A DNA stretch of 64,000 nucleotides from Oscillospiraceae bacterium (GTDB lineage: Bacteria > Bacillota > Clostridia > Oscillospirales > Oscillospiraceae), in contig CACZDN010000016.1 in assembly GCA_902779945.1 (NCBI GenBank), positions 168,903 to 232,902 on the forward strand, given 5' to 3'. Numbering within the stretch: position 1 is the first letter of the stretch; every line of letters starts with the position of its first letter. A program made the position numbers and the translations under genes. A model generated the notes under the pieces. It had not been told where the DNA came from and did no database searches. It saw nothing but the letters and a program-made list of their open reading frames with translations. Shown here one piece after another: positions 27,565 through 51,593 of the stretch.

Positions 27565-27622
27565 TTTTGCCTCTTCTCCTTCAAAAAATCCAGTGTTTTC
27601 AACGGTTTGCGTGTTTTGCTGT

Positions 27623-27651: not shown

Positions 27652-28833
27652 TCAAACGGCCATGCTCTGTTCATACGCCTGCACGGCATCTGTGAGCGAA
27701 TCGTCTGTGACATGGACATACCTGTCCATCGTCGTCTTGATGCTCGCATGACCAAGCAATTTCTGAAGTATCTTCGGCTGCATCCCACTCTCAATCGCGC
27801 GGGTTGCGTAGGTGTGCCGGAGCGCGTGCATACAAAACCGTTCGATTCCAGCCTCGTCACAAAGTTTATAAAGATGCGTATCATAAGAGCTGTTCTTGGC
27901 AGGTTCTCCTGTGCGAAAATTTATAAACACAAGATCCCGCATTAAGAGGTATCTGGTATCACCGGTTCGCAAATCGACATACTCCAATACCTGCGAGAGC
28001 AATTCTGCCTCTTTCCTTGTCTCTCTCTCATTGTACGCAGCCCTCAAGACTTCATAGGCCCTGTTCGTGAGAGGGATTGTACGATAGCTGTGCTTCGTCT
28101 TGGGAGGCCCCGCCCGCCAGTAGCCGTCTCCATGGCGGTACTCCAGGGATTTGTTCACTGTGAGCGTCCGCTTCTTCCAGTTGATCGAATCCCACGTCAG
28201 GCCAATCATTTCCGCAGTTCTCAGCCCGGTCTCCAACAGCAGCACATATTGCCGATAATTATGAGAACGCTTCGCTACCTCAAGAAAAAGCTTCTGCTCC
28301 TCGACGGTAAGAAAATGAATGTCATCTACCGCACGGACGGGCTTCATGTATCTGACGCCATCCATCGGATGCTTCACGATAATATCGTTCATCACGGCAG
28401 CACGGAACATCGTGCCAATCGCGATATAGGTTTGACGAATGGTGGAGCCCGCATAGACAGGTTCCATGCGGTTGAGTATTGCTTTGCAGTGCATAGGCTT
28501 GACATCCGTGATCTTCATTTTGCCGATGACAGGCTGCGCATTGATAAGGTATCTTTCTGAATAATTTCTTCGCGTGTTGGGAGCAAGATCGCAGATGAGA
28601 TTGTCCATCCAAAACTGATACCACTGATCGACCGTCATATCTTCCGCTTTGGGAATACGACCATGCTTGTCTTCATAGATCGCGTCAGCAAGCCAATTAC
28701 GCGCTTCGGGAAGCGTTTCAAAGTATTTCTCAGGGCGAGAGCCGTCTTTTGCATTATATCTGGCTGAGTAAAGACCGTCCTTTCTCTGGTAGATTCCTGT
28801 TCCGCATTCTCTACCTTTTAGATTTTTGCCCAT
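27652..28833 (-). CDS. int: Tyrosine integrase, Tn916 type
   Basis: 393 residues; ribosome site AAGGAGTCAATGTA. N-terminal AP2-like arm-binding segment ([35 protein letters not shown]), SAM-like core-binding domain ([14 protein letters not shown]...[14 protein letters not shown]) and a complete catalytic domain: Arg in [14 protein letters not shown], His/Arg in [10 protein letters not shown], His in [10 protein letters not shown] and nucleophile Tyr in MDRYVHV. It integrates and excises the element with the help of Xis. Position next to ychF and the neighbouring xis mark this as the left end of the mobile island. It appears intact. Confidence 0.94.
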
Positions 28834-30133: not shown

Positions 30134-31114
30134 TTACGCTGCTCTCTGAAATCGGATGCCGCTGGCGCGGAGGGAGAGCTCCTGAGACAGGAGCTTGAGG
30201 GATTCAAACTCCTCGCCCAGACCGTCCAGCTCGCGGCGGAGCACCTGCTCGTAGTGGCGCTTTTTCCCCTCCAGAGCGCCGATCTTCATGACCCAGCGCT
30301 CCATGATGGCGGGGCTTTGGCTGCCGCTCTTGATGAGGTAGTCCGCGCGTTCCTGGTATTCCGCGATCTCCTTCTTCACCGCGGCGTAGAATTCCTCGGT
30401 CATCTTGTCCCGCTGCTTTAAGTCGTCTATGATATAGATGGAGTTTGCCATGAGGCGGGCTTTCGTTCTGTTGAGGCTGCTGAGGGCCTCCATGAAGTCC
30501 TCGAAGATATCCACCTTCTCCATGCTGTGCCGGGGGACGAAGTAGAGATGTCCGTTGACGCTCATTTTCGTGGCCTCCAGGCCGCGGATATAGTTCAGGC
30601 AGATGGTCTCGATCTGCTTGCGGTTGGCGCAGACCTGATACAGCTCGAACAGCTCCTCGGCGCGGCGGCAGTAGGCGGCCGCGTCCACGTCGCTGTCATA
30701 GGCCAGATTGTCATAGCTGAACAAGCCGCTCTCCTTGTCGAAGCTGATGTTCGCCAGCTTCTCATACTGATTGGTCTCGCGGTTAAGCGTCTCCTTGACC
30801 AGCTCCCTGGACAGGACGCGCGGGGTGTGCTCGTTGTCGCGGCAATAGACCCGGTAGATCTGCTGCATACCGCTGTGCTTGACCACGATCCTCTCCTTGA
30901 TGTCCCCGGTGGCGCTCTTGAAGGCGTCGGAGGCGGATACGCGGCGGTCGCCGGCGTAGTAGATGCCCATGCCGGCGCAGAGCTCGGACAGCTTCTCCTT
31001 GTCGATCAGAATGTCGGAGAGGGAGAAATACAGGAGCTTGCCCAGCATGTTGTTCTTGTCGCCGGACGCCACGCCCAGCATGTCGTTCATGGAAATAACG
31101 TCGCTCATTTTCAA
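30134..31114 (-). CDS. DUF6744-like protein, last gene of operon A
   Basis: 326 residues, soluble and mainly helical with a coiled-coil-prone C-terminal half (AAVKKEIAEYQERADYL...LEGKKRHYEQVLRRELDGLGEEFESLK). The opening MSDVISMNDMLGVASGDKNNMLGKLLYFSLSDILID and the middle RRAEELFELYQVCANRKQIETICLNYIRGLEATKMSVNGHLYFVPR resemble the family catalogued as DUF6744, found in mobile elements of Clostridia beside Rad52-like and primase-like genes. Function unknown. The small helical ORF upstream is separated by seven bases, so it is part of the same transcript. Confidence 0.6.
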   Translation of the reverse strand: MKMSDVISMNDMLGVASGDKNNMLGKLLYFSLSDILIDKEKLSELCAGMGIYYAGDRRVSASDAFKSATGDIKERIVVKHSGMQQIYRVYCRDNEHTPRVLSRELVKETLNRETNQYEKLANISFDKESGLFSYDNLAYDSDVDAAAYCRRAEELFELYQVCANRKQIETICLNYIRGLEATKMSVNGHLYFVPRHSMEKVDIFEDFMEALSSLNRTKARLMANSIYIIDDLKQRDKMTEEFYAAVKKEIAEYQERADYLIKSGSQSPAIMERWVMKIGALEGKKRHYEQVLRRELDGLGEEFESLKLLSQELSLRASGIRFQRAA

Positions 31115-31121
31115 ATCCTCC

Positions 31122-31361
31122 TTACCAGTTTCTCAGCACTTCATCCAGTTTGTCATAGCGCCCCTGACACAGCAGGCCGCACTCATAGTGGAAGTTGATG
31201 TCCGTCAGCCGGTACTCGATGAGCTCCATAGCATGACGGTCGCCCTTCTTTCGCGCGGTCTCATGCCTGCGAAACAGGCTCTGCATGATGGTGGGCGTCA
31301 GGCAGTATTCATTCCTGCGGTTGACCGCGCGGACGCGGTCGCATTCTTTTTCTGTAAGCAT
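31122..31361 (-). CDS. Small helical protein, unknown
   Basis: 79 residues, basic and helical (ECDRVRAVNRRNEYCLTPTIMQSLFRRHETARKKGDRHAMELIEYRLTDINF) with three cysteines. The gene is packed between the primase-like and DUF6744-like genes with gaps under ten bases. Not recognised; the size and charge would fit an accessory DNA-binding or partner protein. Confidence 0.6.
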   Translation of the reverse strand: MLTEKECDRVRAVNRRNEYCLTPTIMQSLFRRHETARKKGDRHAMELIEYRLTDINFHYECGLLCQGRYDKLDEVLRNW

Positions 31362-31370
31362 AGCTTCTCC

Positions 31371-32432
31371 TTATGCCGCGGCGCGGGCGTGGTAATAATC
31401 GTCCACACCCTTGTACGCCGGGCTCCATACATATTTGGAATAGCGGATGTTCGGCAGGCTGCCGAGCTCCTTTCGGATCGCCAGCACCGCGTTTCGGACA
31501 TGGGGATTCGTGTTCTGATCCATATCCATCGCCTCTACCAGTTCCGTGACGCCGAGCGCCCTCACCGTCTCTTTGAGACCGTGGATCGCGTTGACGCCGC
31601 CGATGCAGACGAGCAGCGCGTCGTTGTCCAGGTAGCTCGCCACGTCGCCCTTGAGGGGGCCTTCCGTCAGAAATGCCCGTTTGCTCGCGGTGTTGCCGGT
31701 CACATGAATCCAGGAATAGCTGCGTGTGCCGTTGGGCATGCCCCGGCTGGAGAGCCAGCGGTACTTGCGGTCCGGGTCGGCCTCATCGTCGAGGCGGATC
31801 TTCAGGCCCTGGATGAGGCCGTCCTTGTCGCGGACGGGGATCAGGAAGCCGCTTGGCCCAGCAATCGTCCACTCGCCGTAGCAGGTGCGAAAACCGGGGA
31901 TGCCCTGCAAATTGTGGCCGCAGCCTCTGAGCAAACTTGCCAGAAGTCTGCGTCCGGCGTCCGTCTCCGGCATGGACCGATACTCGTTCTGTTCGATCCG
32001 TTCCTTCGAAAGGCCGCGGCCGATCAGGTTTTCCCGGTGCCGGTCGGACAGCGTCAGCAGGTGCAGCATATCCGTGTAGATCTCGCTGCGCTCCGCAAGA
32101 GAGCGAGGCGCGGCCTCTGTATATTGGGAGTCGGGCTGCTTCGGCATGGGATAGACATTGCCGCCCTCCTCCAGTTCCCGAAACGCCTCCAGATTGTCCA
32201 GCCCCTTCACACGGGCATAAAGCGTGACGCTGTTGCCGTGCGCGCCGCAGAGGACGCAGCGGTACTGATCGGTGGAGGTGTTCAGGAACAGATGGTATCT
32301 TCCCGCACCGTGGTCACCGCAGAAGGGGCAGCTCGCCTCAACCTCGCCCCGGTGAAGGGTACGGGGATTGAGGACGAGCCCGCACCTGTGAGCCGTGTCT
32401 ACGATGGGGATCTTTTGGTAGGCACGGCCCAT
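31371..32432 (-). CDS. Primase-like protein: CHC2 zinc finger + toprim (DUF3854-like)
   Basis: 353 residues. N-terminal zinc ribbon of DnaG/CHC2 type: ASCPFCGDH...YRCVLCGAHGNSV (two C-x2-C pairs, about residues 34-65). The middle FLIPVRDKDGLIQGLKIRLDD is the primase beta segment, and the C-terminal toprim-like part has FLTEGPLKGDVASYL and EAMDMDQN, where Glu and the D-x-D are the metal-binding residues. There is no helicase domain; a large helicase is encoded in operon B. It probably makes primers for replication of the element. Confidence 0.8.
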   Translation of the reverse strand: MGRAYQKIPIVDTAHRCGLVLNPRTLHRGEVEASCPFCGDHGAGRYHLFLNTSTDQYRCVLCGAHGNSVTLYARVKGLDNLEAFRELEEGGNVYPMPKQPDSQYTEAAPRSLAERSEIYTDMLHLLTLSDRHRENLIGRGLSKERIEQNEYRSMPETDAGRRLLASLLRGCGHNLQGIPGFRTCYGEWTIAGPSGFLIPVRDKDGLIQGLKIRLDDEADPDRKYRWLSSRGMPNGTRSYSWIHVTGNTASKRAFLTEGPLKGDVASYLDNDALLVCIGGVNAIHGLKETVRALGVTELVEAMDMDQNTNPHVRNAVLAIRKELGSLPNIRYSKYVWSPAYKGVDDYYHARAAA

Positions 32433-32444
32433 GAGCGCCGTTCC

Positions 32445-34307
32445 TTATGCCGCCATGGGCATTTCGTTTACAATGGGTTTCACCGCACGGATATTCAGAT
32501 CGGCGTTTCGGACGCACTTGGCCATGAGCACCTGTCCCGTAGGCCGGACGTTGTTGAGATCGTCCACCGACTCCATGTTGTCCACGAAGACGGGATAGTT
32601 TCGCCCAGTCAGGCGCTTCATGAGCTCGGAGACCTCCATGCCGGCGCGAATTTTCTCCGAGAGGGAGAGCCGGTCGTAACGGCGGCCGCTGTACTCGAAA
32701 CGGAACACGTCCTTCACCTCGCCCGTGCTTTTCACCACGTCGTAGAGAGAGATGGACACGCGGTTCATCTGCAGCTGAGCAAGGGTGAGCTCCACGCGCT
32801 TGGCGATGTATTGCAGCAGGCAGCCGACGGCCTCCTTTTGCTCGGCGATCTGTTTCTGTGCCGCCTGGATCTTGGCCTCAAATTCTTGCTCCGAGGGGAA
32901 GGTTGTGTTTTTCAGGGCGGAGAGCTCCGCCTCGATTTGCCGCAGCTCCTCGGCGCAGGCTTTCATTCGGTCATATTCCTCTGTGTTGAGATTTCCGTAC
33001 TCCAGATCGGAGGTGAGCGTCTGCATCCTCGTGCGAAGCTCCTCCAACTGATTCCGGCGCTGCGCGGAGGCGCGGCTGCCGCTTTCCAGCACCCTGCCGC
33101 GCTCCTCGGTGAGCTCGCGGACAGACTGCTCCAGCTTTGCCACGTCCTCCTCCTTGAATTTCTGAAAGGTCTCCAGAGATTGGGCGTCCATCGCCTTCAG
33201 CTCCTCCAGCTGGACGCGCTGCTCCTTGCCCTCGGCAACGATGCCGCTGACGCTCTGCTGGAAAGCCTTGCGCACGACGGGTACGTCTTCCTCAGACACC
33301 GCGCGGCGGCAGGTTGGACAGACGAAGCCGGGGACGATGGCCTTGCCCGCGCTGACTTCGGCGTTATACTTCGCGCCGAGAGCCTTCACGCGCTCGGTCG
33401 CCGCCGCGATCGCCTGCGTAAACTTGGATTCATAGGCGCTCGCGGAGCGTTCCGCTAGCTTTCGCGCCTGCTCATAGAGCCGCGCGTCCAGCTCATCCAG
33501 CCCGCTCTCATCGCTGTTGTCGTTGAAGAGCTCGCTGTACTGGGCACTCAGATCGGTGAGGGTGCTCTCCAGCTCGGCGGTGTCGATCCCGGCATAGCGT
33601 TTTGCCTCCAGCGCCTGCTTTTCTTCCGTCAGGCTGCCGCGTCTGGCTTCCAGCTCCGCGCGCCTGGTCTGTCCGTCCTTCTGCTGGGAGAGGGCCAGGT
33701 CCTGCTGCCCCTGGAGATAGATCACAGAGTTCTCCAGCTCCCGGATATCCTTGCGAAGCTGCTTGACGCGCCCCTCGGGGGACATGAGCGTTTCAGCCGG
33801 AAGTCTTTGCCGGATGGGGTCGGACAGCTCCGCGAGCACCTTTTCCTGCGGGATCATCGGGAGATAGCGCTGCAGGAGGTTCTTCCCGTCCTCGCCCAGC
33901 TCCTCAATGAAGTACAGGGGATTGAAGATCGAGAGAAACACGTCCTTTTCGCCGAACATCTCCGTCAGATCGAGCTGGCGAAGCTCCTGACCGTCATAGA
34001 CGATCCCGGTCCTGCTGCCCTTGTGGCTGCGCGTCAGTTCGTGCGAAACGCCCTTGTCGTCCACGAAGCGCATGGTGACGAAAAGCTCCGGATCTCTCTC
34101 GCTGTGCAGCCGGTCAATGTTCCGCTCCGCGAAGAACGGGAGGCCGGTGACAGCGTAGGCGATGGCGTCCGCGATGCTGGACTTGCCGCGGCCGTTGCCG
34201 CCGGTAATGACCGTGGGATTGCCGAAGCGCAGTTCCGTGGGCTGCGAAAACGACTTGAAGCCGGATAAGCGCAGGCCCGTGATCTGAAAACCGCTGATCT
34301 TTTCCAT
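32445..34307 (-). CDS. Rad50/SbcC-like SMC-type ATPase
   Basis: 620 residues. Walker A GGNGRGKSS (36-44) after a typical N-terminal strand (LRLSGFKSFSQPTELRFGNPTVI). Long coiled-coil arms follow (about 165-320 and 345-480), broken by VPGFVCPTCRRAV, a C-x2-C like a Rad50 zinc hook. The C-terminal lobe has RLSLSEKIRAGMEVSEL (signature-like) and PVFVDNMESVDDL (Walker B-like, with Asp but an unusual order of acidic residues). No SbcD nuclease lies next to it. It is followed downstream by primase and preceded by the Rad52-like gene, so a DNA-end handling role is likely. Confidence 0.82.
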   Translation of the reverse strand: MEKISGFQITGLRLSGFKSFSQPTELRFGNPTVITGGNGRGKSSIADAIAYAVTGLPFFAERNIDRLHSERDPELFVTMRFVDDKGVSHELTRSHKGSRTGIVYDGQELRQLDLTEMFGEKDVFLSIFNPLYFIEELGEDGKNLLQRYLPMIPQEKVLAELSDPIRQRLPAETLMSPEGRVKQLRKDIRELENSVIYLQGQQDLALSQQKDGQTRRAELEARRGSLTEEKQALEAKRYAGIDTAELESTLTDLSAQYSELFNDNSDESGLDELDARLYEQARKLAERSASAYESKFTQAIAAATERVKALGAKYNAEVSAGKAIVPGFVCPTCRRAVSEEDVPVVRKAFQQSVSGIVAEGKEQRVQLEELKAMDAQSLETFQKFKEEDVAKLEQSVRELTEERGRVLESGSRASAQRRNQLEELRTRMQTLTSDLEYGNLNTEEYDRMKACAEELRQIEAELSALKNTTFPSEQEFEAKIQAAQKQIAEQKEAVGCLLQYIAKRVELTLAQLQMNRVSISLYDVVKSTGEVKDVFRFEYSGRRYDRLSLSEKIRAGMEVSELMKRLTGRNYPVFVDNMESVDDLNNVRPTGQVLMAKCVRNADLNIRAVKPIVNEMPMAA

Positions 34308-34325: not shown

Positions 34326-35237
34326 TTACGCGGCCTGATCCAGAATCTCGAAGCTCTCCAGATAGTAGAACACGACGGAGTCCTTCTGCTTGAGCGTCTT
34401 GCGGACGTTGTAGAGCCTGGCGTCGATGCGGAGTTCCGGGTGGGTGCCGCGGGTGTAGGCCAGCAGCTTTTTCCCGTCCTGATCCACGAGCATGAGACTG
34501 GTGTTCTCGCCGCTCATGCCCTTCTGCACCTTGACGTCCGTCACGGTGTACTCCCAAACGGGAGACTCCGGCGCTTTCCTGTACTGCGCGAGATCCACGA
34601 CCTTGCCGCCCTTTTCTTCTTCCTTCTGTGACTGCGCGGGCTGAGGCGGTTTCTCCACCGCCCGTTCCTTCTCCGTCCCGCCGGGCGCTCTCTGCGGAGT
34701 GAGCAGAGACTGCACGCCGCCGGGCGCGGCGACCTTGAGCTTCAGCTTGGCCAGCATGTCCATGTAGGCTTTATCCAGCTTGGGACGCTCGGAGGGCTTG
34801 ATTACATAGCTCTTGCCCTTCTTCTCGATCCCGACAAAGACCGTGTCCATGTTGTACAGGACGCGGCCGATGCCCCACTGGACGGCGGCGCGCTTCATGG
34901 AATCGCTGAGTCCGCCCTTGACCGGCTCAATATCCGAGTCCTCGGCTCCGTCCCATTTGGTGATGAAGCCGCGGCCCTCGAAGTAGATGGAGATACCGCA
35001 GATCTGCGCCTCACGCTTGCCGGTACCGTGCCAGGGCTGGTACTCGTTGTACCAGTTCTGCGGGCCGACGACCTCATCCAGCCGGTTCTGGATTGCGCGG
35101 TTCGTCACATAGGGAACCGCGATGCCCTGCATGCTGCTCTCAAAGGCCATCTGAATCCGCCATTCCAGATCCTCCGCGGCGAAGGGCATGGCCAGCGCCG
35201 CCTGGATCTCACTCGTCGTTTTCTTCGTTTCGTCCAT
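34326..35237 (-). CDS. Rad52/22-family single-strand annealing protein
   Basis: 303 residues from the ATG at 35237 (GGGAGGTATCT upstream). The first 160 residues match the Rad52_Rad22 fold: MAFESSMQGIAVPYVTNRAIQNRLDEVVGPQNW, AQICGISIYFEGRGFITKWDG, and SDSMKRAAVQWGIGRVLYN, which is the characteristic A-x-x-W-G-I-G-R motif. A proline/lysine/glutamate-rich linker (about 185-225) leads to a small C-terminal domain (VWEYTVTDVKVQKGMSGENTSLMLVDQDGKKLLAY). It anneals single strands or loads onto SSB-coated DNA. It overlaps the E2-like gene by 29 bases. Confidence 0.85.
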   Translation of the reverse strand: MDETKKTTSEIQAALAMPFAAEDLEWRIQMAFESSMQGIAVPYVTNRAIQNRLDEVVGPQNWYNEYQPWHGTGKREAQICGISIYFEGRGFITKWDGAEDSDIEPVKGGLSDSMKRAAVQWGIGRVLYNMDTVFVGIEKKGKSYVIKPSERPKLDKAYMDMLAKLKLKVAAPGGVQSLLTPQRAPGGTEKERAVEKPPQPAQSQKEEEKGGKVVDLAQYRKAPESPVWEYTVTDVKVQKGMSGENTSLMLVDQDGKKLLAYTRGTHPELRIDARLYNVRKTLKQKDSVVFYYLESFEILDQAA

Positions 35238-35922
35238 AGATACCTCCCACAAAGTCTCCCAAGGTTTTCCCGTTGGGGATGAGGACGTCCGTATAGTAAT
35301 AGGCCGGTTCCTTGTCCTTCAAATGCTCCATCAGCTCCCTGTGTTTCAGACCGAGCTTGTTGTGACTGGGTGAAAACATATCGTCGTTGTCCGGGATGCC
35401 CAGCAGATAGCGCGGGAAATTCACCAGTGCCGACTGCTTTTTATAGCGCGGCAGCACGTTGTTCCCCGTGCATACGCGGGAATCTTCGTAGACGTTGGAA
35501 AAAGGATAATGGTACATAAGCGAGGCAGGCGTCGGTTTTTCATCGGCCACCACGCCGAGGGTGCAGCCGGCCACTCTGCCGGTATCCAGCAGACGTATGC
35601 CGAACACCAAACGCGGGATTGGGAAATTGAGATATTCCACATCCCCATAGGTCATGTCCGCCCTAAGCTCCGGGTTCCAGAGTACAAAGGTTTTCTCCCC
35701 TTTCCCGATAGTGACGGACAGACAGTGGTCCGGGAGCAGTCCGGTCTCAACCGTCTCGCTGTTCCTGTAACTCTCATTGAGCATGAAATACAGGTCGACG
35801 GGAGAGATCTCCTTAAAGGAAATTACCCCGTCGCGCTTGCGTTCCTCCACAATGATCTTGCCCGAATGGGGAGAGATGCGGAGGCAGATGTCGTTGCCGT
35901 ATTCTGTGTTTTCCGCTGCCAC
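35209..35922 (-). CDS. Predicted E2-like protein of the PRTRC-B / Prok-E2_D family
   Basis: 237 residues from a GTG that overlaps the TAG of the upstream gene and follows GGAGGAGGCCGC; an ATG 21 bases earlier is the alternative. The conserved core reads LNFPIPRLVFGIRLLDTGRVAGC...KPTPASLMYHYPFSNVYEDSRVCTGNN. In family terms, the P-x-L-x-Y-x-x-P-x-x-N-V-Y-x-x-x-x-V-C block is the signature of the PRTRC system protein B family, predicted to have an E2 (ubiquitin-conjugating) fold with the Cys after RV (residue 151 from the GTG) as the thioester candidate. Partners in this operon are a ThiF/E1-like and a JAMM protein. The biochemical role has not been shown for this family. Confidence 0.7.
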   Translation of the reverse strand: MAAENTEYGNDICLRISPHSGKIIVEERKRDGVISFKEISPVDLYFMLNESYRNSETVETGLLPDHCLSVTIGKGEKTFVLWNPELRADMTYGDVEYLNFPIPRLVFGIRLLDTGRVAGCTLGVVADEKPTPASLMYHYPFSNVYEDSRVCTGNNVLPRYKKQSALVNFPRYLLGIPDNDDMFSPSHNKLGLKHRELMEHLKDKEPAYYYTDVLIPNGKTLGDFVGGIYGRNEENDE

Positions 35923-36485
35923 TACGCGGCCTCCTCCATACAATGTTTCGGAAGAGAAACGATCTTGTCCGACCGCTTCTCTATGATCTGTTTCATGTGT
36001 TCGTTTTCCCGGATAAGGTAGTGCATCAGGTCTGTGAGCGCGATCACCAATCCCCCGGGCTCCCAGTATCCCTCCGCAAATTCAAGCTGAATCTGCGGGC
36101 TGTTGCCTTCATAACGGATCGTCATGTCAAAGATCCCGCAGTTGCGGTCAGACAGGAAAAAGGTGACGATGTCCTCAAATCTCCTTCTGACAGCCTGAAC
36201 TGAACAGGGATGCGCCTCCATGAGCTTCGCGCTGAAATCCAGATATTCATCGAAGACTGTGTCATAGATACACATGAGCTCTGAGCCGCTCATCTCATCA
36301 TATTCCGAGTAGCAGTCATCAAAAATTTCTTCTATAGAATAGTAGATGAATTCCAGAATCTGTTCCGTCGAAAACTGTGTCTCGCCCGCGACAAGCCGCG
36401 CCGCCCGTTCCGGTCTGTACATCTGCACAAAGCGCAGCAGTCTCAGGACGCCGAGAATGTCGTACTCATAATCGTTGTCGTACAT
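35922..36485 (-). CDS. Acidic helical protein of operon A, unknown
   Basis: 187 residues, strongly acidic, rich in Tyr, Glu and Asp (MYDNDYEYDILGVLRLLRFVQMY; YYSIEEIFDDCYSEYDEMSGSELMCIYDTVFDEYLDF). Predicted mostly helical with a short beta segment (FDMTIRYEGNSPQIQLEFAEGYW). It ends with KHCMEEAA*, whose TAG overlaps the GTG of the E2-like gene, so the two are translationally coupled. Not recognised. The coupling makes a role as partner or substrate adaptor of the E2-like protein plausible; this is inference. Confidence 0.65.
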   Translation of the reverse strand: MYDNDYEYDILGVLRLLRFVQMYRPERAARLVAGETQFSTEQILEFIYYSIEEIFDDCYSEYDEMSGSELMCIYDTVFDEYLDFSAKLMEAHPCSVQAVRRRFEDIVTFFLSDRNCGIFDMTIRYEGNSPQIQLEFAEGYWEPGGLVIALTDLMHYLIRENEHMKQIIEKRSDKIVSLPKHCMEEAA

Positions 36486-36494
36486 AGGCAGCCC

Positions 36495-36794
36495 TCAGAA
36501 AAAAGCGCGCTTCTCCCGCGGCGAGGCCTGGATGAGCTTGAGCATCTTGTTGAAGCCCTTTTGCCAGCCCTGTTCCATACCCCTGTAGTGATCTTCCGAC
36601 CACTCCATGGCGGTATGACACAGATCGAAAGCGTTCAGATCCAGCTTCGTGAGGTCGATGGTCTCGCCTCTGCGCAGCCTGTCGAACACCTCTGTTTGCA
36701 GATACTCGCTGTGCTGCGGTTTTTCGCAGTACGGGATCTTTTCCGGGACGGAATGGAGAAGCTCCGTGAAAATCTCAGGATGAAATTCAAGCAT
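36495..36794 (-). CDS. Small protein of operon A, unknown
   Basis: 99 residues from the ATG at 36794, which lies five bases after the stop of the upstream gene; the frame is open further 5' but that part is antisense shadow. Helical, with LRRGETIDLTKLDLNAFDLCHTAMEWSEDHYRGMEQGWQKGFNKMLKLI. Not recognised. Spacing on both sides is under ten bases. Confidence 0.6.
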   Translation of the reverse strand: MLEFHPEIFTELLHSVPEKIPYCEKPQHSEYLQTEVFDRLRRGETIDLTKLDLNAFDLCHTAMEWSEDHYRGMEQGWQKGFNKMLKLIQASPREKRAFF

Positions 36795-36798
36795 GGCT

Positions 36799-37326
36799 TT
36801 ACCCCAGATCGACGACGCGGACCACGCAGATGGCGTAATCCGCCACATGGCTGATGATGTGCTGTTCCTCCGCCTCGGAGATAAACGCTTTGCCCTGTTG
36901 GGTGTAGTACACGCCGTAATCTGGCAGCACGATGCCGCCCTCCGCGAGCACCTTCCAGGCCAGGTGGAACATGAGCGATTCATTCTCCTTGTCGATGACA
37001 ATCGGAATAACACGCTTGCCGGTGTCCGCCTTTTCGATCTCCTTGAGCAAAATGCCGAGGTGGAAGTCCGTGGCCTTCTGCTGCGTGTGCTGGGCCTCGG
37101 CATAGAGATTGAGGAAGTTCAGAGGATCTTCCCGCCCCAGAACGATGCCGAAGGCGTTTTTGATCTCGCTGTCCCAGGCCTTCTGTACCGGGAAAAAACT
37201 CCCGTAGTATTTGCCCAGATACTTTGTGAGCAGGCTGGTCACGGTCGCCCACACCTGTGTTTTGAGGCTGTCGCCGTTCTGTCTTTCATCGACCGGAACG
37301 ATGACCGCCAGGTTGTTGGATTTCAT
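36799..37326 (-). CDS. Unknown protein of operon A
   Basis: 175 residues. Begins MKSNNLAVIVPVDERQNGDSLKTQVWATVTSLLTKYLGKYYGSF, continues with a helical middle (FLNLYAEAQHTQQKATDFHLGILLKEIEKA) and ends with beta strands (RVIPIVIDKENESLMFHLAWKVLAEGGIVLPDYGVYYTQQGKAFISEAEEQHIISHVADYAICVVRVVDLG). Not recognised. The gene is between the methyltransferase-like gene (13 bases) and the 99-residue ORF (four bases). Confidence 0.65.
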   Translation of the reverse strand: MKSNNLAVIVPVDERQNGDSLKTQVWATVTSLLTKYLGKYYGSFFPVQKAWDSEIKNAFGIVLGREDPLNFLNLYAEAQHTQQKATDFHLGILLKEIEKADTGKRVIPIVIDKENESLMFHLAWKVLAEGGIVLPDYGVYYTQQGKAFISEAEEQHIISHVADYAICVVRVVDLG

Positions 37327-37338
37327 AGTGTCCTCCTG

Positions 37339-38733
37339 TCATGTCAACGACTTGAATCCTTGGGGCGTCAGAATGTTGAAGATCATCTTGTTGGTGACGA
37401 CCTCCCGGATCTCCGCGCCCATGTGGCTTCCCTCCGCGCTGAATTTGTCCTCGCTTTCCGTATGGACGACCTTGACGATGCGGCCTTTGATAATGTGCGG
37501 ATGTTCGCACTCGATGAGGCCGTTGATCATGCCGGAGCCGCCGATCAGACCGATCTGCCCGATGGAGAGCGGCAGGAGCGGATGCTTTACGCCGCTATCA
37601 AGCTCGCTGCGGGCCATGAGCTGTTCAAAGCTATTCGACCGGCGCAGCTGCTGCTCCAGTTCCCGCTCGTTGAAGATCTCGCCCTTGAAAACAGAAACCT
37701 CCGTCTGTACTGTGGGCAGCGCATAATGCCCTTCCGGAAGCTCGACGAGGCTTGGGATCGTTTCGGGACTCACGGCAAATCGCTCCAGCCAGAGACTGTC
37801 GCCGGGTTCCGCTGCCTTACGCTTGCGGACGCCCATGACGGCTACCTGACGGAAGCGCTTGAACTCCGCGTCCGTAAAACGCCAGACCGTGAGATCGTCG
37901 AAGTTATCTGCCAGCACCCGGCAGATGTCCGGGGTGAGGCGGTAATACGGGATCACATAGATCAGCAGGCCGCCCAGCATGAGGGTATGGATGCTCTCGA
38001 TCAGGAAACGCTTCTCATGGCGGGACTTGCCGCCGTTGCCGTTTAATACGGACAGATACGGGGGATTCAGAAACAGAAGATGGAAGGCGTCATGGCTGAC
38101 GGTGCTGTGAAAGAAGCTGCCGAAGCCCACGCGATGGAGCCGCGTCTGGGCCTCCTCAGCCCTGTTTTGATCCAGCTCCACGCCGTAGGTATAGCAGTTG
38201 TTCCCCTGGGCGAGCTGCCGGAGCGCCTTGCCGCAGCCGCAGCAGGGGTCCAGCAGATTGGTGGTGACGCCGTCGGGAAAGGTGATGCCCCGGAGTATCA
38301 GGTCGATGTTGTCCGGGTCCGTGGGATAGTAGCCCAGCTTGATCTGGTTCATGAGGCGGCCCACCACAGCGGCGTTGACGGTATCTCCCGCGGGGATGCG
38401 CGAGGCAAAGCCCTGCAGCACGTCATAGACGCTTTTGTAGTTGGTACTCATAAGATCAAAGCGGGAAAGTCCCTGGCCGAGCTTACCGGCCAGACCGGCA
38501 AGCTCGTATTCCTCCACTTCCATCAGCAGCAGTCTCGTGTCGTAGAGCGCCTTTTCGAGAGCGCCCTTTGCCTTCTTCAGTTCCAGATAACTGTCCTTCG
38601 CGGCGGCCATATCCGCCTGCCGGTACTTTTCCACCTTGGCGCGGCTCAGCACCATCGCCTTGGACTGCCGGAGGATGCTGTTTCTGAGCTCCGCCAGCCG
38701 TTCGACGGCGTAATGTTTCTCCTGCGCTTCCAT
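37339..38733 (-). CDS. DNA methyltransferase-like protein (DUF6094 type)
   Basis: 464 residues. The SAM-binding motif is LLDPCCGCGKALRQLA (about 178-193), the acidic second motif lies in YGVELDQNRAEEAQTRL, and the catalytic N-P-P-Y is in FHLLFLNPPYLSVLNGNGG (about 255-262), the signature of N6-adenine methyltransferases. An N-terminal helical extension of about 130 residues precedes the catalytic domain; the C-terminal 150 residues may read DNA. There is no restriction gene beside it. It could mark element DNA or counter host restriction. Stable location inside the E1/E2/JAMM operon is the notable point. Confidence 0.8.
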   Translation of the reverse strand: MEAQEKHYAVERLAELRNSILRQSKAMVLSRAKVEKYRQADMAAAKDSYLELKKAKGALEKALYDTRLLLMEVEEYELAGLAGKLGQGLSRFDLMSTNYKSVYDVLQGFASRIPAGDTVNAAVVGRLMNQIKLGYYPTDPDNIDLILRGITFPDGVTTNLLDPCCGCGKALRQLAQGNNCYTYGVELDQNRAEEAQTRLHRVGFGSFFHSTVSHDAFHLLFLNPPYLSVLNGNGGKSRHEKRFLIESIHTLMLGGLLIYVIPYYRLTPDICRVLADNFDDLTVWRFTDAEFKRFRQVAVMGVRKRKAAEPGDSLWLERFAVSPETIPSLVELPEGHYALPTVQTEVSVFKGEIFNERELEQQLRRSNSFEQLMARSELDSGVKHPLLPLSIGQIGLIGGSGMINGLIECEHPHIIKGRIVKVVHTESEDKFSAEGSHMGAEIREVVTNKMIFNILTPQGFKSLT

Positions 38734-38736
38734 GCC

Positions 38737-39441
38737 TTACGCGGCCTTCTGCGCGATGGTTTCCGTGGCAAAGTCAAAGACGGGCGCGTTCTCCTCCGGC
38801 GTACCGGGGATCAGGCGCAGGGTATAGCCCGCCTCCCGCGACAGCTTGAAGAGACCGACGATGCGGTTGAGCTCTTCGTCTTCCTCTTCTGCCGCAGGAT
38901 TCGTTTCCTCTTCGTCAAGGGGAGGCTCCATGGGATCGTCGTCCACCGCGCTTTTCCTGTAGAAAGGTTCAAAGTCCGCGTCCAGCACCTCGCCCTCCGC
39001 GGGCTTCGCGAAGAGCCTTGCGCGAAGGGAGCGAAAGAAGGAAGCAATGAGCATCCCCAGCAGGCTTGTATGGACGCGGGGCAGGTGGATGATCTCGTCA
39101 GCCTTGGCCTCATCCACGTCACTCAGGGCCACGGTCAGCTTGCCCGTCTCCACATAGGCGGTGGAGAGGAAGCAGCTCACGGCCAGCGACTCGGAGGCGT
39201 AGACCTCCGGCGCGTCGATCCGCTTCGCGGCAGCGCGGACGCAGACGACCGCGGCGGCCTCGATCTCTCCGATGCTGATGTCATCGGCATAGACCGTGCT
39301 GGCGCTGATAACGCCTTTGCCGCTGATGACCTTGGCTTTGACGCCGTAGACCACCTTCAGGCAGCCGTCCACAACCAGGTTTTCGGTCACCAGGGATTCG
39401 TACTTTACGGTTTCTCCCGCGGGGATATATACAGTTTTCAT
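38737..39441 (-). CDS. Beta-helix-like protein of operon A, unknown
   Basis: 234 residues. The first 120 are a run of short beta strands with regular hydrophobic spacing (YIPAGETVKYESLVTENLVVDGCLKVVYGVKAKVISGKGVISASTVYADDISIGEIEAAAVVCVRAAAKRI..APEVYASESLAV), like bactofilin or other right-handed beta-helix folds. After a basic helix (LLGMLIASFFRSLRARLF) comes an acidic stretch (DDDPMEPPLDEEETNPAAEEEDEELNRI) and a short C-terminal domain. No family assigned with confidence. Three bases separate it from the methyltransferase gene. Confidence 0.6.
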   Translation of the reverse strand: MKTVYIPAGETVKYESLVTENLVVDGCLKVVYGVKAKVISGKGVISASTVYADDISIGEIEAAAVVCVRAAAKRIDAPEVYASESLAVSCFLSTAYVETGKLTVALSDVDEAKADEIIHLPRVHTSLLGMLIASFFRSLRARLFAKPAEGEVLDADFEPFYRKSAVDDDPMEPPLDEEETNPAAEEEDEELNRIVGLFKLSREAGYTLRLIPGTPEENAPVFDFATETIAQKAA

Positions 39442-39454
39442 GATGATCTTCCTT

Positions 39455-40222
39455 TCATGCCGCTTTTTTCTTTATGGTTTGTTTTTGCAGAACGGTCTGC
39501 ATCCTTACGGTATTGGTGGAGAAATCCGTCTGCCGGACAAGGCTCTCCCCGTGGGTAAGGATGTTGTAGACCATATCCACCACGGCGGTGGCCGCGGTGA
39601 TGTTGGCCGCCATGCTCTGGGGATCGGACTGAGCCGCTTCCGCGCAGGAGAGCTCCGTAGGGAACTTGTCCGTCGCCTTCAGAAGCTCCGGGTGTACGCC
39701 GCCGATGGGCTTGAAAAACGTATGCCCGTTTTTCCTCACGCCGCAGACCACCTGGCCTGAGAACTCACCGTTGCCGCTGTCGATGTAGATGAGGTCCTGC
39801 GCCTGACAAAAAGCCTGATGGCAGAGCTGCCGGGACTTGTTGTTGTCCACGGCGCCGATCAAGATCACCATCTCTTTGACAAAGCGGTAAACGTGCGGGT
39901 CAAGCTGCCATTCTCTCGGCATGATGAGCGCCTTGAGCGTTTCAAGGTTCTCCACGAAGTTCGGGACATACTCGGCCTCCATGCCAAAGACGGAAGCGTA
40001 GCGCTCCGCCAGGACGCGGGCCTTGTTCTCGCCCAGATCGGCGGGGGAAAAGTTCTGCCGGATCAGATTCTTCTGCTCCACGATGTCGCCGTCGCAGAGG
40101 ATAAACCTCGCCGGACGGCCCAGTGCGTACAGCAGGCGGTAGAGGTGCGGCGCGATATGCCCGCCCGTTCCGCCGGCGCCGAGCATCACGATTTTGACCG
40201 GTACGTCAGTGGGATACTTCAT
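39455..40222 (-). CDS. ThiF/E1-like adenylyltransferase (PRTRC-ThiF type)
   Basis: 255 residues from the ATG at 40222 (GAGGATCTGGACG upstream, inside the JAMM gene). Rossmann core: KIVMLGAGGTGGHIAPHLYRLL (GxGGxGG, about 10-31), FILCDGDIVEQKNLIRQNFSPADLGENKARVLAERY (nucleotide-binding Asp and the NxxRQ-type Arg), and LIGAVDNNKSRQ (about 121-132), all diagnostic of E1/ThiF/MoeB adenylating enzymes. A possible thiol donor is Cys193 in TELSCAEAAQSDPQS. It would adenylate the C-terminus of a ubiquitin-like protein. No free ubiquitin-like gene was recognised nearby. Overlaps the JAMM gene by 17 bases. Confidence 0.87.
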   Translation of the reverse strand: MKYPTDVPVKIVMLGAGGTGGHIAPHLYRLLYALGRPARFILCDGDIVEQKNLIRQNFSPADLGENKARVLAERYASVFGMEAEYVPNFVENLETLKALIMPREWQLDPHVYRFVKEMVILIGAVDNNKSRQLCHQAFCQAQDLIYIDSGNGEFSGQVVCGVRKNGHTFFKPIGGVHPELLKATDKFPTELSCAEAAQSDPQSMAANITAATAVVDMVYNILTHGESLVRQTDFSTNTVRMQTVLQKQTIKKKAA

Positions 40223-41513
40223 CGTCCAGATCCTCAAACATGCTCTTCCGTCTGGAGGCCAGACGGGACTCCTTCTTCTTGCAGGTGACATGCTCATGCC
40301 AGTCCTTCGGATACTCCCGCTCCAGCCCCTCGATCACCGTTGCCGGGTCGATGGGGACGAAGCTCCCGCCGCAGAAGATGCGCGCCTTGATTTCCGGGAA
40401 GAAATGATCGAGCTCGCCGAGCACCAGATACAGGCCCGTTTCGCTCTCATCCCAGTCGTCCTCTGCCGAGAAGAACGCCTCCATGCTGTTGTGGCTGTGG
40501 ATATCCGCATAGCGGATGAAGCGGCTCTCATCGTCGTAGGGGCAGTCACGAAGATCGGCGTCCAGATGGGATTTCTGTACCGTCTGCTTGGGGACATAGG
40601 CGAAAAACTCCTGCTCCAGCTTGTCCCAGTAGATCAGGGCCAGCGCTTCATACTCCTCATGCTCCTGCATGAAGGAGCGGAAGAAGGCGATGATCTGCCC
40701 GATCAGGGACAGCGGGATCAGGGGCAGAGCCGGGATAAACCCGGCCCTTGCCGACTGAAACTCAGTCACTTTGTTTTTTGGGGCAATAAACTCACCCTGC
40801 TCTGTCTTTCTCATCTCATAGAACTTGCCGTCGTTCGCGGGGAAAAGGCAGATCACTTTGTCCGACTGCCGGGCTTCCTCGGCGCTGCCGAAAACGCCCT
40901 TGTACGCCGCGTTGCCCTTCGATTTCATGGTAACTCTGGGCTTCACGAAACAGTCCGGGTTCTTGTCTTTGGATTTCCTCAGCATCTCCAAGAATTCGCG
41001 GGACCGCTCCACGCTCTCCTTCATGGAGGCGATGGTCGTGCCCTCCGGGTCCTTCACATCCTTGCGGATCGTGCCGTACTCGATGCTCCAGGTGACGTAC
41101 TTGCCCGCCTCCAGATCTGTAAAGTCCTCGGACTTGCGGATGCGGAGCTCCTCAAAGGTCATGGAGGTGTCCTCGATGGTCTCCTTCGCGCCCTTGTGGT
41201 AGAAGATGGGCAGCTTGTCATAGAGCCCCTTCTGGGTGTTCTCCTGGGTCTTGGTCTCGATCGCGGCGGAGATCGGATCGGGAATCTCTTCCTTCTTCTC
41301 CGGCTTTGCCTTCGGCGCTTTTTTCTCCGGCGCGGGCGGGGGCGTTTCCGCCGCTTTCTGCTCCGCGGGGGCCTCCTGCTTCTCGGCTGTCGGTTCCTGC
41401 GCGGGTTCCGGGGTCTCAAAGGGATTCTCGCTGCTTGCTCCACCGCCGAAGATCGCCTCAATGTCAAGGCCGTCGTCCTCCAGTTCGGTGAATACGCTGT
41501 CGCTTTCGTTCAT
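40206..41513 (-). CDS. JAMM/Mov34 metallopeptidase-domain protein (PRTRC-A type)
   Basis: 435 residues, first gene of operon A. Residues 1-95 are a disordered, Pro/Glu/Lys-rich tail. Residues about 100-235 form an uncharacterised domain (LPIFYHKGAKETIEDTSMTFEELRI, VTWSIEYGTIRKDV, VICLFPANDGKFYEMRK). Residues about 240-400 hold a JAB/MPN domain with a complete zinc motif: H339-x-H341, seven residues, S349, two residues, D352, in ADIHSHNSMEAFFSAEDDW; the partner Glu probably lies in the EHEEYEALALIYW strand-helix. Such proteins remove or process ubiquitin-like modifiers. Its neighbours are the E1-like and E2-like genes. Confidence 0.82.
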   Translation of the reverse strand: MNESDSVFTELEDDGLDIEAIFGGGASSENPFETPEPAQEPTAEKQEAPAEQKAAETPPPAPEKKAPKAKPEKKEEIPDPISAAIETKTQENTQKGLYDKLPIFYHKGAKETIEDTSMTFEELRIRKSEDFTDLEAGKYVTWSIEYGTIRKDVKDPEGTTIASMKESVERSREFLEMLRKSKDKNPDCFVKPRVTMKSKGNAAYKGVFGSAEEARQSDKVICLFPANDGKFYEMRKTEQGEFIAPKNKVTEFQSARAGFIPALPLIPLSLIGQIIAFFRSFMQEHEEYEALALIYWDKLEQEFFAYVPKQTVQKSHLDADLRDCPYDDESRFIRYADIHSHNSMEAFFSAEDDWDESETGLYLVLGELDHFFPEIKARIFCGGSFVPIDPATVIEGLEREYPKDWHEHVTCKKKESRLASRRKSMFEDLDDEVSH

Positions 41514-42051: not shown

Positions 42052-42086
42052 GAATGACAAGATTATTTCAAAGCGTGGAGGACACC

Positions 42087-45415: not shown

Positions 45416-47008
45416 TCAAACTGCCAATTCGCTGATCACGCTGCGGACAATATCCTCGCCGCAGAGCTGGCTGGTCCTGTAGATCTTCCGGCAGAAGGGC
45501 GTCAGGCTGAACTCCATGCCGGGGCAGCCCATGTCGAGCAGGATGCCTGTCACGCTGAAATTCTTTTCTATCTGCTTATGTCGAAAGGTTTCCGCGAAAG
45601 CCTCCGGCAGCTCACACTCGCCGTCCGTCAGAAAAACTATGTCGGCGTTTTCAAAGCCGCCTTCGTCCATGAGCTTCAGGGCCTCGGTCAGCGGGGTCTC
45701 AAAGTTCGTGCCGCCGCCGAGAAAGGTCTCCGCCGCGCGCAGCTTATCCTCCTTGCCGTATTCTCCCGGAAGAAACAGATCGACCTTGACGCTGGATTGG
45801 GACGCGAAGTGGATCAGCGCGAATTTGCGCTTTCCCTCCTCCGCAATTTCCAGCAGCGTCATGGCCAGCGCTTTCCCCCAGGCGGCGGGGTTGCCTTCGG
45901 TGGACGCGGATTCGTCCAGACAGCAGATAATGTCGCCCATGCCCTTGTTGACAGGCTCGCGGCGGCGGTACTGCTTGATCTGCCTTTGCTGGTATTTCCG
46001 CAGAAACAGAGGAATTGTCTGCGGCATGGCCAGCATGGAGAGCTCCGAGGTCAGCGCGCGGCCGATGTCATTGCCGAGCTCCAGCGAGTAAGTCTCGCCC
46101 CGGCCATAGACGTATCCGTTCTTTCGCCCCTGGGATAAAAGCTCCCGGAAGCGGCCGAGATATTTGGACACATCCCGAAGAGCGGGGCTTTTCCGCACTC
46201 TCGCCAGCAGTTCCATGTTCATCGGCGTTCGCTTGCATTCCGCGGGGTCGTCACTCCAGGAGGAGAGGATCGCGCTCGCTTCCTCCGCCCGCTCCTTTGC
46301 CGAATGTATGGCGGCGGACAGGGCTTCGGACAGCTCGTCCTTTTTCTGAAGCATTGTGTTTTCTACGATTTTGGACACCGCTTCGACCTGCCTCTCCTTT
46401 CGCACAAGCTGATTTGCCGCCGAAAGGATTTCCTTTTGCAGCGGCTCGGACGGAGTCTTGCCCGAAGGCGCCAGCTCCAGCAGATCGCTCAACTTTTGGG
46501 CCGCGTCCTCCTCGGCGTGCTCCAGCTTTTCCAGCGTGTTCATGGAGCCCTTGTCTCCGCCGAGATCTGAGAGCAGGTCATCCAGATTCTCCGCCGTGCG
46601 GGAAATAAACTCGCTTGCCGCCTCGTAGGCCAGCAGCTCGCGGCCCTCGCAGACATTCTTCAGCGTCGGGTAGTCCTCCTGCTCAGTAACGCCGTCCAGA
46701 AGGCGGGTGTTGAATTCTCTCGCCGCCGGTGAGAGTTTTTCCTCCGGATTTCTCCGCTGCGTTAGGGAATAGAAGCTCTGAAAGATATCCTGCGACAGAG
46801 CGGGGAAAGATTTGAGCTTTTCGGAGGCAATAGCCTCAACCGTGTCCAGCTCCGTATCCTCCTGCCGCATGTCCGAATAGATGCTGTCGTCCAGCCTGGT
46901 GGAGCGGAGCACACGGTCAGTCTTTTCCTCCTTCCGACGAGCAAGGGTTTGCAGTCTGTCCCATGAGGCGGACATGACCGCCTCAAAGCTGTGAAAGGGA
47001 TTGATCAT
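45416..47008 (-). CDS. VWA-domain protein (MoxR partner, ViaA-like)
   Basis: 530 residues from the ATG at 47008 (GGAGGCAGCT upstream). Residues about 1-310 are helical, with a coiled-coil-like stretch (MNTLEKLEHAEEDAAQKLSDLLEL). Residues about 335-500 form a von Willebrand A domain with an intact MIDAS: DESAS (D-x-S-x-S) in IICCLDESASTEGN, Thr in LGGGTNFETPL, and Asp in FLTDGECELP. Proteins with this layout work with MoxR-type AAA ATPases as metal-dependent scaffolds or chaperones (RavA-ViaA is the best known pair). The MoxR gene lies two genes upstream in the same operon. Confidence 0.85.
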   Translation of the reverse strand: MINPFHSFEAVMSASWDRLQTLARRKEEKTDRVLRSTRLDDSIYSDMRQEDTELDTVEAIASEKLKSFPALSQDIFQSFYSLTQRRNPEEKLSPAAREFNTRLLDGVTEQEDYPTLKNVCEGRELLAYEAASEFISRTAENLDDLLSDLGGDKGSMNTLEKLEHAEEDAAQKLSDLLELAPSGKTPSEPLQKEILSAANQLVRKERQVEAVSKIVENTMLQKKDELSEALSAAIHSAKERAEEASAILSSWSDDPAECKRTPMNMELLARVRKSPALRDVSKYLGRFRELLSQGRKNGYVYGRGETYSLELGNDIGRALTSELSMLAMPQTIPLFLRKYQQRQIKQYRRREPVNKGMGDIICCLDESASTEGNPAAWGKALAMTLLEIAEEGKRKFALIHFASQSSVKVDLFLPGEYGKEDKLRAAETFLGGGTNFETPLTEALKLMDEGGFENADIVFLTDGECELPEAFAETFRHKQIEKNFSVTGILLDMGCPGMEFSLTPFCRKIYRTSQLCGEDIVRSVISELAV

Positions 47009-47067
47009 AGCTGCCTCCGTTTTCAGCAGGCGGGAAGGCCGAAGCCTCCCCGCCATGATTTTGATGT

Positions 47068-47460
47068 TTACTCAAAAGCGCCGGGGTTGAAGTCGTCCGG
47101 GATACCGAAGCCGTCGCTGTCGCCGCCCTTCTTGCCGTCGGGCTTGGAGTCGCCGAAGTACATGTTGTCCACGACGACCTCCGTGCTGTAGCGCTTGTTG
47201 CCCTCCTTATCCGTCCAGGGGCGGATCTGCAGGCGGCCGCTGACAACGGCCATGCGGCCCTTGGCGAAATACTTGGCGGCGAAGTCCGCGGTCGAGCGCC
47301 AGGCCACGCAGTCGATGAAATCCGTTTCCTTCTCGCCGTCCCTGCCACCGAAGTCGCGGTCACAGGCCAGCGTGAACGAGGCTACCGATGTGTTGGCCTG
47401 CGTCGTGCGCAGCTCCACGTCGCGGGTCAGTCTTCCCATGAGTACAATGTGATTCAACAT
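47068..47460 (-). CDS. ssb: Single-stranded DNA-binding protein
   Basis: 130 residues. OB-fold SSB: MLNHIVLMGRLTRDVELRTTQANTSVASFTLACDRDF, DFIDCVAWRSTADFAAKYFAKGRMAVVSGRLQIR and YSTEVVVDNMYFG. The C-terminus is short (GFGIPDDFNPGAFE) and lacks the usual DDDIPF tip, though IPDDF is similar and acidic. Likely an element-specific SSB for replication with the helicase and clamp of the same operon. Confidence 0.92.
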   Translation of the reverse strand: MLNHIVLMGRLTRDVELRTTQANTSVASFTLACDRDFGGRDGEKETDFIDCVAWRSTADFAAKYFAKGRMAVVSGRLQIRPWTDKEGNKRYSTEVVVDNMYFGDSKPDGKKGGDSDGFGIPDDFNPGAFE

Positions 47461-51580: not shown

Positions 51581-51593
51581 AGTGTTTTCCCTC

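Follow-up and report, generated by a model that had tools for sequence, protein, structure and literature searches.

A predicted ubiquitin-like modifier fused to its own JAMM protease in a mobile island of an Oscillospiraceae bacterium

Where is the modifier in an operon that appears to carry the enzymes of a ubiquitin-like conjugation pathway and no free ubiquitin-like gene? This question is raised by a 64,000 nt stretch of DNA from an Oscillospiraceae bacterium (assembly GCA_902779945.1, contig CACZDN010000016.1, positions 168,903 to 232,902), here called the window, whose numbering is used throughout. An original prediction made from the letters of the sequence had placed E1-like (ThiF), E2-like and JAMM proteins in one operon of a mobile island, related them to PRTRC (ParB-related, ThiF-related cassette) systems, and suggested that the modifier was either hidden in residues 100-235 of the JAMM protein or was one of the small operon proteins. 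All the reading frames it named exist and lie on the minus strand, which it had not specified, and the missing modifier is very probably formed by residues ~102-200 of the JAMM protein. We consider it likely that the island carries the genes for a full ubiquitin-like conjugation cycle, with a modifier that is synthesised as a precursor joined to its own JAMM protease. The model is built on sequence, conservation, predicted fold and co-occurrence, from which we infer every reaction in it. Its core features are the following.

40206..41513, minus strand: Ubl-JAMM fusion protein, 435 aa, consisting of a tail, a ubiquitin-like (Ubl) domain, a linker/JAB-N region and JAMM
40914..41210, minus strand: predicted modifier domain, residues 102-200, ending PRVTMKSKG
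40458..40499, minus strand: JAMM metal motif HSHNSMEAFFSAED, residues 339-352
39455..40222, minus strand: E1-like/ThiF adenylyltransferase, 255 aa (Pfam ThiF 9.7e-16)
35209..35943, minus strand: Prok-E2_D E2-like protein, 244 aa (Pfam 2.8e-12), with candidate active C158 at 35470-35472

Relatives were collected with a three-member ThiF alignment scanned against a single genome of each species; of the 87 found, the best 80 were kept. The 435-aa JAMM protein starts with a tail rich in E, P, A and K (residues 1-~100), disordered judging by its composition, followed by the Ubl domain (~102-200), the linker/JAB-N region (201-~284) and the JAMM domain (~285-395). Residues 339-352 form the exact H-x-H-x7-S-x2-D motif that had been predicted, a pattern seen in 7/20,000 shuffles of the protein, and H339, H341, S349 and D352 were each conserved in 67/67 rows with letters at those positions, window included. 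The ThiF protein clears the Pfam cut-off and keeps its nucleotide loop, and among aligned homologs D126 and R131 were conserved in 84/84 and C193 in 82/84. JAMM and ThiF form a single frame in two loci (L030 and L047; 724 and 741 residues). In L035, L039, L069, L016 and L033, JAMM, ThiF or DnaN is seemingly split over at least two frames, as in decayed or frameshifted copies.

The sequence around the end of the Ubl domain reads FVKPRVTMKSKG200-NAAYKG, an ending of the form P-x-V-x4-K-G. K199-G200 was kept in 67/69 aligned long homologs, window included, the two exceptions being L068, which has RQ, and L089 from a viral contig, which is without the domain; P192 was kept in 66/68 rows. An AlphaFold2 model of residues 96-205, built from 60 sequences, had a mean predicted local distance difference test score (pLDDT) of 89.6, with elements b8-11, b14-17, a25-33, b45-51, b54-58, a66-74, a77-85 and b93-99 in model numbering. 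The last strand corresponds to residues 188-194, and pLDDT is below 50 from residue 200 onward. The modelled order, bb-a-bb-aa-b, is that of ubiquitin with a larger second helix. Foldseek matches listed for this model were mainly FERM, RA, PB1, Elongin B and UBL proteins; going by their titles and the folds assigned to such proteins, we take ~48 of the 50 listed to contain a ubiquitin-fold domain.

The probable end of the modifier is marked by genes on Bacilli plasmids (L005, L094-L101, L107, L108, L111), where a similar Ubl ending and ThiF are found and the Ubl occurs in both fused and free forms. The free genes encode a long polar tail and terminate in ..IVPVVSGAKKG (L005), ..IIPIVSGAKKG (L096), ..VVPIVSGAKNG (L100), ..IIPNVTKAPKKG (L101) or ..LFPRITGGAKG (L111), and in four of them the stop follows P-x-V-x4-K-G or a near match to it. 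In L111 the free Ubl gene is followed by a separate JAMM gene. In seven fused Bacilli plasmid proteins (L094, L095, L097, L098, L099, L107, L108) a like Gly is followed at once by JAMM. Because a like ending closes the free genes and elsewhere runs straight into JAMM, we read the window protein as a self-processing precursor of tag and protease. In Proteobacteria and Deinococcus, PRTRC C proteins have the endings ..GTKG, ..GAKG or ..YKG, one of them with a short extension. The Bacilli loci that were checked also have an E2-D gene and a ~110-aa partner, as in the window. Unlike the window domain, the Bacilli Ubls have no helical insert, carry QxxLF tails in 8/12 cases and are located on plasmids. 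A cyanobacterial Ubl (L102:7540-7950) reads ..AGTKG and continues into a long C-terminal extension that is not JAMM-like by eye.

An earlier end at KDPEG158, without the insert, was also considered. In profile comparisons the end at 200 with the helical insert scored 34.7-43.4 over 58-59 columns across eight boundary choices; the end at 158 scored 34.3 over 35 columns, and six control tails scored 33.9-34.4. These single-pair scores, uncalibrated against a database, mostly favour 200. Global hhalign with the insert left in aligned the end near 158. We rejected 158 because G158 is present in only 32/67 rows, the comparison is mostly for 200 and the last modelled strand spans 188-194. When a nine-member Bacilli Ubl profile was run against 12,680 open reading frames, the 40 best rows were all JAMM-family.

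Several results weigh against assigning a conjugatable modifier to this region. The Foldseek E-values are weak (best 0.016, none <= 0.001 among the listed matches), two of the eight boundary choices (34.7 and 34.9) scarcely exceed the control tails, and within the shared ending L107 is without the Pro and L101 has one extra residue. Matches of single Bacilli Ubls to window-clade proteins are marginal (best 7.7e-4, apart from L005, which is in the profile itself). Of 29 Pfam families matched by 60 window-clade members, the 25 shown do not include Prok_Ub; one member matches ubiquitin at 0.075. Separately, a survey of PF14454 across 398 genomes was uninformative (three with a match at E <= 0.01, none over the cut-off), searches of PDB sequences gave no useful match, and viral contigs yielded only one distant relative, without a Ubl domain in its JAMM frame.

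The domain could instead be a permanent docking or autoinhibitory part of the JAMM protein that is never cut, with E1 and E2 using another modifier such as a host ThiS/MoaD-type protein. It is fused in 68/69 long window-clade homologs, with no free copy seen, although copies elsewhere in the genomes were not searched for, and its Foldseek matches include many ubiquitin-fold domains that are not conjugated. Use of endogenous ThiS/MoaD proteins is among the ideas considered in the discussion of such operons by Iyer et al. (2006; PMC1779556). However, a docking domain would not need the K-G that is kept at the very point where free relatives end, and in L111 the Ubl and JAMM are neighbouring but separate genes; we regard a permanent domain as unlikely. 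A second alternative is a sulfur-carrier pathway, in which ThiF would make a Ubl thiocarboxylate for sulfur transfer rather than protein tagging. Membership of the ThiF family is consistent with this, as are the ThiS matches given next and PAPS-reductase-family genes near ThiF in three of 21 annotated plasmid regions (L099, L100, L106). Nine Bacilli Ubl proteins were scanned against Pfam: two match ThiS (0.00044 and 0.074) and two match Prok_Ub (0.0054 and 0.00057), all below cut-off, with three of the nine reaching E < 0.01 to one or the other. Set against a sulfur carrier, no rhodanese or sulfurtransferase match was found among 24 window proteins scanned, and a conserved E2-like protein together with a JAMM protein is, to our knowledge, not usual in ThiS/MoaD pathways. 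We find this alternative very improbable.

The predicted Prok-E2_D signature and its Cys were both recovered in the E2-like protein, which scored 47.1 bits to PF14460 against a gathering score of 25. All 46 members of set A7 match Prok-E2_D at E <= 0.1, and C158, P147 and N150 are present in 58/58 rows, including the window, a duplicate in its own genome (L001) and the distant L005, L006 and L008. The stretch PxPxxxF..YPFSNV..C resembles, by eye, the classical E2 signature. Within the related genomes searched, an E2 homolog was found in 2/99, the window's own included. The structure check that had been proposed for this product gave a mixed outcome; the AlphaFold2 model was confident (pLDDT 87.4, predicted TM-score 0.71), but the 50 PDB matches listed by Foldseek contain no E2, which counts against the assignment, as does the poor conservation of a His downstream of the Cys (12/58 at position 194; H207, 34/58). 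Among BFVD viral models, A0A7R7G2H5, A0A6J5P0Y8, A0A6J5MFC0 and A0A172Q0C7 match at E <= 0.001 (best 5.4e-11, all E <= 4.5e-5, TM 0.33-0.61); none is named E2 and three are named phage proteins. With no E2 among the listed PDB or viral-model matches, the assignment as an E2 is one of sequence and not of fold search. In L019, two E2-like genes stand on either side of the 187-aa gene within one cassette.

Taken together, the genes form a putative set for activation, transfer and removal, as had been proposed, and we suggest the following cycle. The 435-aa protein is translated as tail-Ubl-JAMM, as seen in its sequence, conservation and model. JAMM, acting in cis or in trans, would cut after K199-G200 and free a modifier with a C-terminal Gly, as suggested by the free Ubl genes that end there. 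The ThiF E1 would adenylate this Gly and hand the modifier on, probably via C193, judging from the conserved residues. The E2-like protein may then take up the modifier as a thioester on C158 and pass it to targets, from which the JAMM half could also remove it.

JAMM and ThiF open a run of 13 tightly packed genes on the minus strand, from 41513 to 30134, which continues as listed below with the E2-like gene between the 187-aa and Rad52 genes.

38737..39441, minus strand: repetitive 234-aa protein, bactofilin-like by eye, no Pfam match above cut-off
37339..38733, minus strand: DUF6094 methyltransferase, 464 aa (Pfam 7.3e-173)
36799..37326, minus strand: 175-aa protein, no assigned family, no Pfam match above cut-off
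36495..36794, minus strand: 99-aa protein, profile pairs with an operon gene at a like position on Firmicutes plasmids
35922..36485, minus strand: 187-aa protein directly before E2, no Pfam match above cut-off
34326..35237, minus strand: Rad52/Rad22 single-strand annealing protein (Pfam 1.9e-15; PHROG Erf-like 1.1e-47)
32445..34307, minus strand: Rad50/SbcC-like ATPase (AAA_23 1.6e-14; PHROG SbcC-like 6e-23; CxxC hook by eye)
31371..32432, minus strand: primase-like protein with CHC2-type zinc finger (PHROG DNA primase 2.3e-11; Pfam 0.0021, below cut-off)
31122..31361, minus strand: 79-aa protein, open reading frame with no assigned family
30134..31114, minus strand: DUF6744 protein, last of the run (Pfam 2.3e-115)

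Farther upstream on the same strand are further genes, and an integrase lies at the left island end.

45416..47056, minus strand: VWA protein (Pfam)
47068..47460, minus strand: single-stranded DNA-binding protein, SSB (1.8e-32)
47489..48865, minus strand: MoxR AAA ATPase (Pfam)
50456..51610, minus strand: DnaN sliding clamp (Pfam)
51594..54599, minus strand: helicase with clamp-binding motif QLSLF at residue 993 of 1001
27652..28833, minus strand: tyrosine integrase beside ychF, left island end (Pfam 7.7e-30; synteny)

Three gene pairs overlap (JAMM/ThiF, 187-aa/E2 and E2/Rad52), in line with the original claim of partial overlap, and the remaining gaps within the run are 3-18 bases; the accompanying claim of one transcript is an inference that we draw from this spacing. 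Between 41400 and 42100 there are four promoter-like sites against 1.1 expected, one of them on the minus strand (42071-42044, 11/12 match). A 496-aa gene with no assigned family, at 42054-43544 on the plus strand, is divergent from the JAMM operon; of the loci compared for this gene, only the window and the near-identical L009 had it. The integrase adjoins ychF. In three genus members the part similar to the window ends at 27564, 27585 and 27604, and in two others it extends through the integrase to 29123 and 29082. The start of ychF (27564-27604) looks like an integration site that related integrases use in other members of the genus. A search of the window for tRNA genes found none, and comparison of synteny with genus members did not locate the right island end. 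Outside the operon, the product of 62518-63972 (minus strand) has YD-type repeats by eye.

The relatives are nearly all titled Clostridia or Bacillota, with a few titled only 'bacterium' and one Opitutales. Co-occurrence was counted in loci with enough flank, and since the loci are mutually related the counts are not independent events. Homologs that never co-occur with ThiF and JAMM would have refuted the original prediction, but they do co-occur. JAMM was adjacent to and upstream of ThiF in 72/72 loci. E2 followed downstream of ThiF in 41/50 and Rad52 in 39/49, and the Rad50-like gene was present in 39/49, the primase-like gene in 33/44 and the methyltransferase in 52/61. The 99-aa gene was present in 32/53 loci, the 187-aa gene in 31/52, the 234-aa gene in 31/65 and the 175-aa gene in 12/55, with VWA in 18/49, SSB in 16/45 and MoxR in 10/41. 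DnaN occurred anywhere downstream of ThiF in 25/77 loci, and a DnaN frame in 16/30 with 9 kb on both sides. The absence of E2 from 9/50 loci with room for it is a point against a complete cycle; these loci look incomplete or rearranged, because all nine are also without Rad52 and eight without the methyltransferase. Most of L007 (MT835919.1), a record filed as a bacteriophage, consists of this cassette, with DnaN between ThiF and the 234-aa gene.

The small proteins fared less well as candidate modifiers. The 99-aa profile paired with the gene at a like position in Firmicutes plasmid operons (hhalign probability 80; its two other pairings < 1), that is, with a Bacilli operon partner and not with a ubiquitin-like protein. 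Weakly, the 187-aa protein is a possible counterpart of the Bacilli gene before E2 (hhalign probability 3 only). We did not retain any of the three small proteins as a likely modifier: besides the pairing of the 99-aa protein, the 175-aa and 187-aa proteins have no Pfam match above cut-off and the 175-aa gene is present in few loci. Overall, the original interpretation was partly supported.

How does this operon relate to known systems? The type 6d operons outlined by Iyer, Burroughs and Aravind (2006; PMC1779556) have separate JAB, E1-like and E2-like genes and a small standalone Ubl gene with a conserved C-terminal Gly; they are listed there for low-GC Gram positives too, and a His downstream of the E2 Cys is described as absolute. 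Shared with the window are the separate JAB, E1-like and E2-like genes and a diverging helical protein. A Ub-like segment with a conserved Gly is likewise predicted in the window, but there it makes up the N-terminal half of the JAMM protein and has a helical insert, and the Gly, kept in 67/69 rows, is internal, in a fusion; the E2 Cys is kept but the type 6d His is not, and the run includes Rad52, Rad50-like and primase-like genes. The best PRTRC models (NCBIfam TIGR03735-TIGR03738) were PRTRC A for JAMM (6.9e-12), PRTRC B for E2 (5e-10) and the ThiF model (1.1e-28), all missing their cut-offs: 100.2 versus 144.75 bits for ThiF (TIGR03736), 39.1 versus 131.45 for B (TIGR03737) and 45.3 versus 101.8 for A (TIGR03735). 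Unlike PRTRC, protein C is not a free gene here, and, as originally predicted, no ParB-like gene was seen: the 24 window proteins scanned against Pfam gave no ParB-family match, the remaining open reading frames lying outside the scan. We did not file the system as PRTRC because it falls below the three curated cut-offs and has neither a matched ParB gene nor the type 6d His; it is related to type 6d and PRTRC, a variant thereof. In the open literature, with subscription papers and preprints mostly uncovered, we found no description of a Ubl-JAMM fusion or of a tie to the clamp.

The BilABCD and CBASS Cap2/Cap3 systems share the E1, E2 and JAB logic, with a protease acting at the C-terminal Gly of the modifier, and they offer precedents for the protease steps. 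A JAB protease processes BilA according to a review (PMC11354881), and Cap3 is described as cleaving a linear fusion after a C-terminal Gly, with one Gly being enough for cGAS (PMC10097602). In Bil the modifier is a free two-domain BilA, whereas the window has one modelled domain fused to JAMM; in CBASS, Cap2 is an E1-E2 fusion that conjugates cGAS, whereas the window E1 and E2 are separate genes. We know of neither system in an operon with Rad52 or clamp genes.

The defensive role of CBASS Cap2/3 against phage, as presented in PMC10097602, suggests that the whole cassette could be an anti-phage or anti-plasmid defense island with the tag as effector or sensor. PADLOC matched the methyltransferase to mad2 (5.8e-16) and the Rad50-like ATPase to LmuB (9.6e-14). 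However, among the 10 proteins scanned the PADLOC E1-E2 models cover only ~70 residues of ThiF and neither JAMM nor E2 has a match at E <= 0.001, and the cassette partners are replication and annealing proteins (DnaN, SSB, Rad52, primase-like). We give a defense island little credence.

What, then, might the tag modify? Of 21 annotated plasmid regions (flanks 6-15 kb, unannotated L004 not counted; no control for background frequency near any plasmid gene), six have a clamp or clamp-loader gene in the vicinity of ThiF: DnaN in L008, L094, L103 and L107, DnaX with delta-prime in L098, and delta-prime in L095. In L107, Rad52 and DnaN adjoin the module. QxxLF, given as a general clamp-binding consensus in PMC12309361, occurs in 8/12 Bacilli modifier tails (L005, L094-L097, L099, L100, L111) against 0.08 expected from shuffles, starting within the first 17 residues in seven of the eight, and in 0/30 other proteins of the Bacilli operons, these controls being operon partners and not disordered tails. 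The pattern was applied after the sequences had been seen, to twelve mutually related tails, those examined from 27 records and others; a stricter pattern on nine tails gave 4/9 against 0.02. The window helicase has the C-terminus ..SDQLSLFDLVA, a consensus clamp-binding peptide. On the cyanobacterial plasmid, the gene just before the Ubl gene (L102:7238-7528) ends in ..TQLNLF, a clamp-type motif. Telling against a clamp tie, window-clade tails are not clearly enriched (QxxLF 3/65 against 0.78 expected; Q[LMIVFA]x[LM]F 5/86 against 1.9), and we did not retain the motif as a feature of these tails. The Bacilli tails suggest, rather than show, replisome targets.

Because the cassette genes travel with those for the sliding clamp, SSB and Rad52, and because Bacilli modifiers carry clamp-binding peptides, we tentatively propose replication or repair proteins, encoded by either the element or its host, as targets, with these three as the leading candidates. 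More speculatively, the system might be a bacterial, mobile-element counterpart of PCNA ubiquitination, in which a self-releasing modifier, held at the clamp by its QxxLF tail in Bacilli or by a clamp-encoding cassette in Clostridia, would tag the clamp or Rad52/SSB, would thereby direct how the element is replicated or repaired by annealing, and would be removed by JAMM.

PRTRC and type 6d gene sets have been in the literature since 2006, and no function is known to have been assigned to them. With a probable modifier and its likely end located, and with genes for clamp, SSB and Rad52 recurring alongside, this question becomes assayable. If true, the synthesis of a tag already joined to the protease that removes it would also be an unusual way to balance tagging and untagging.

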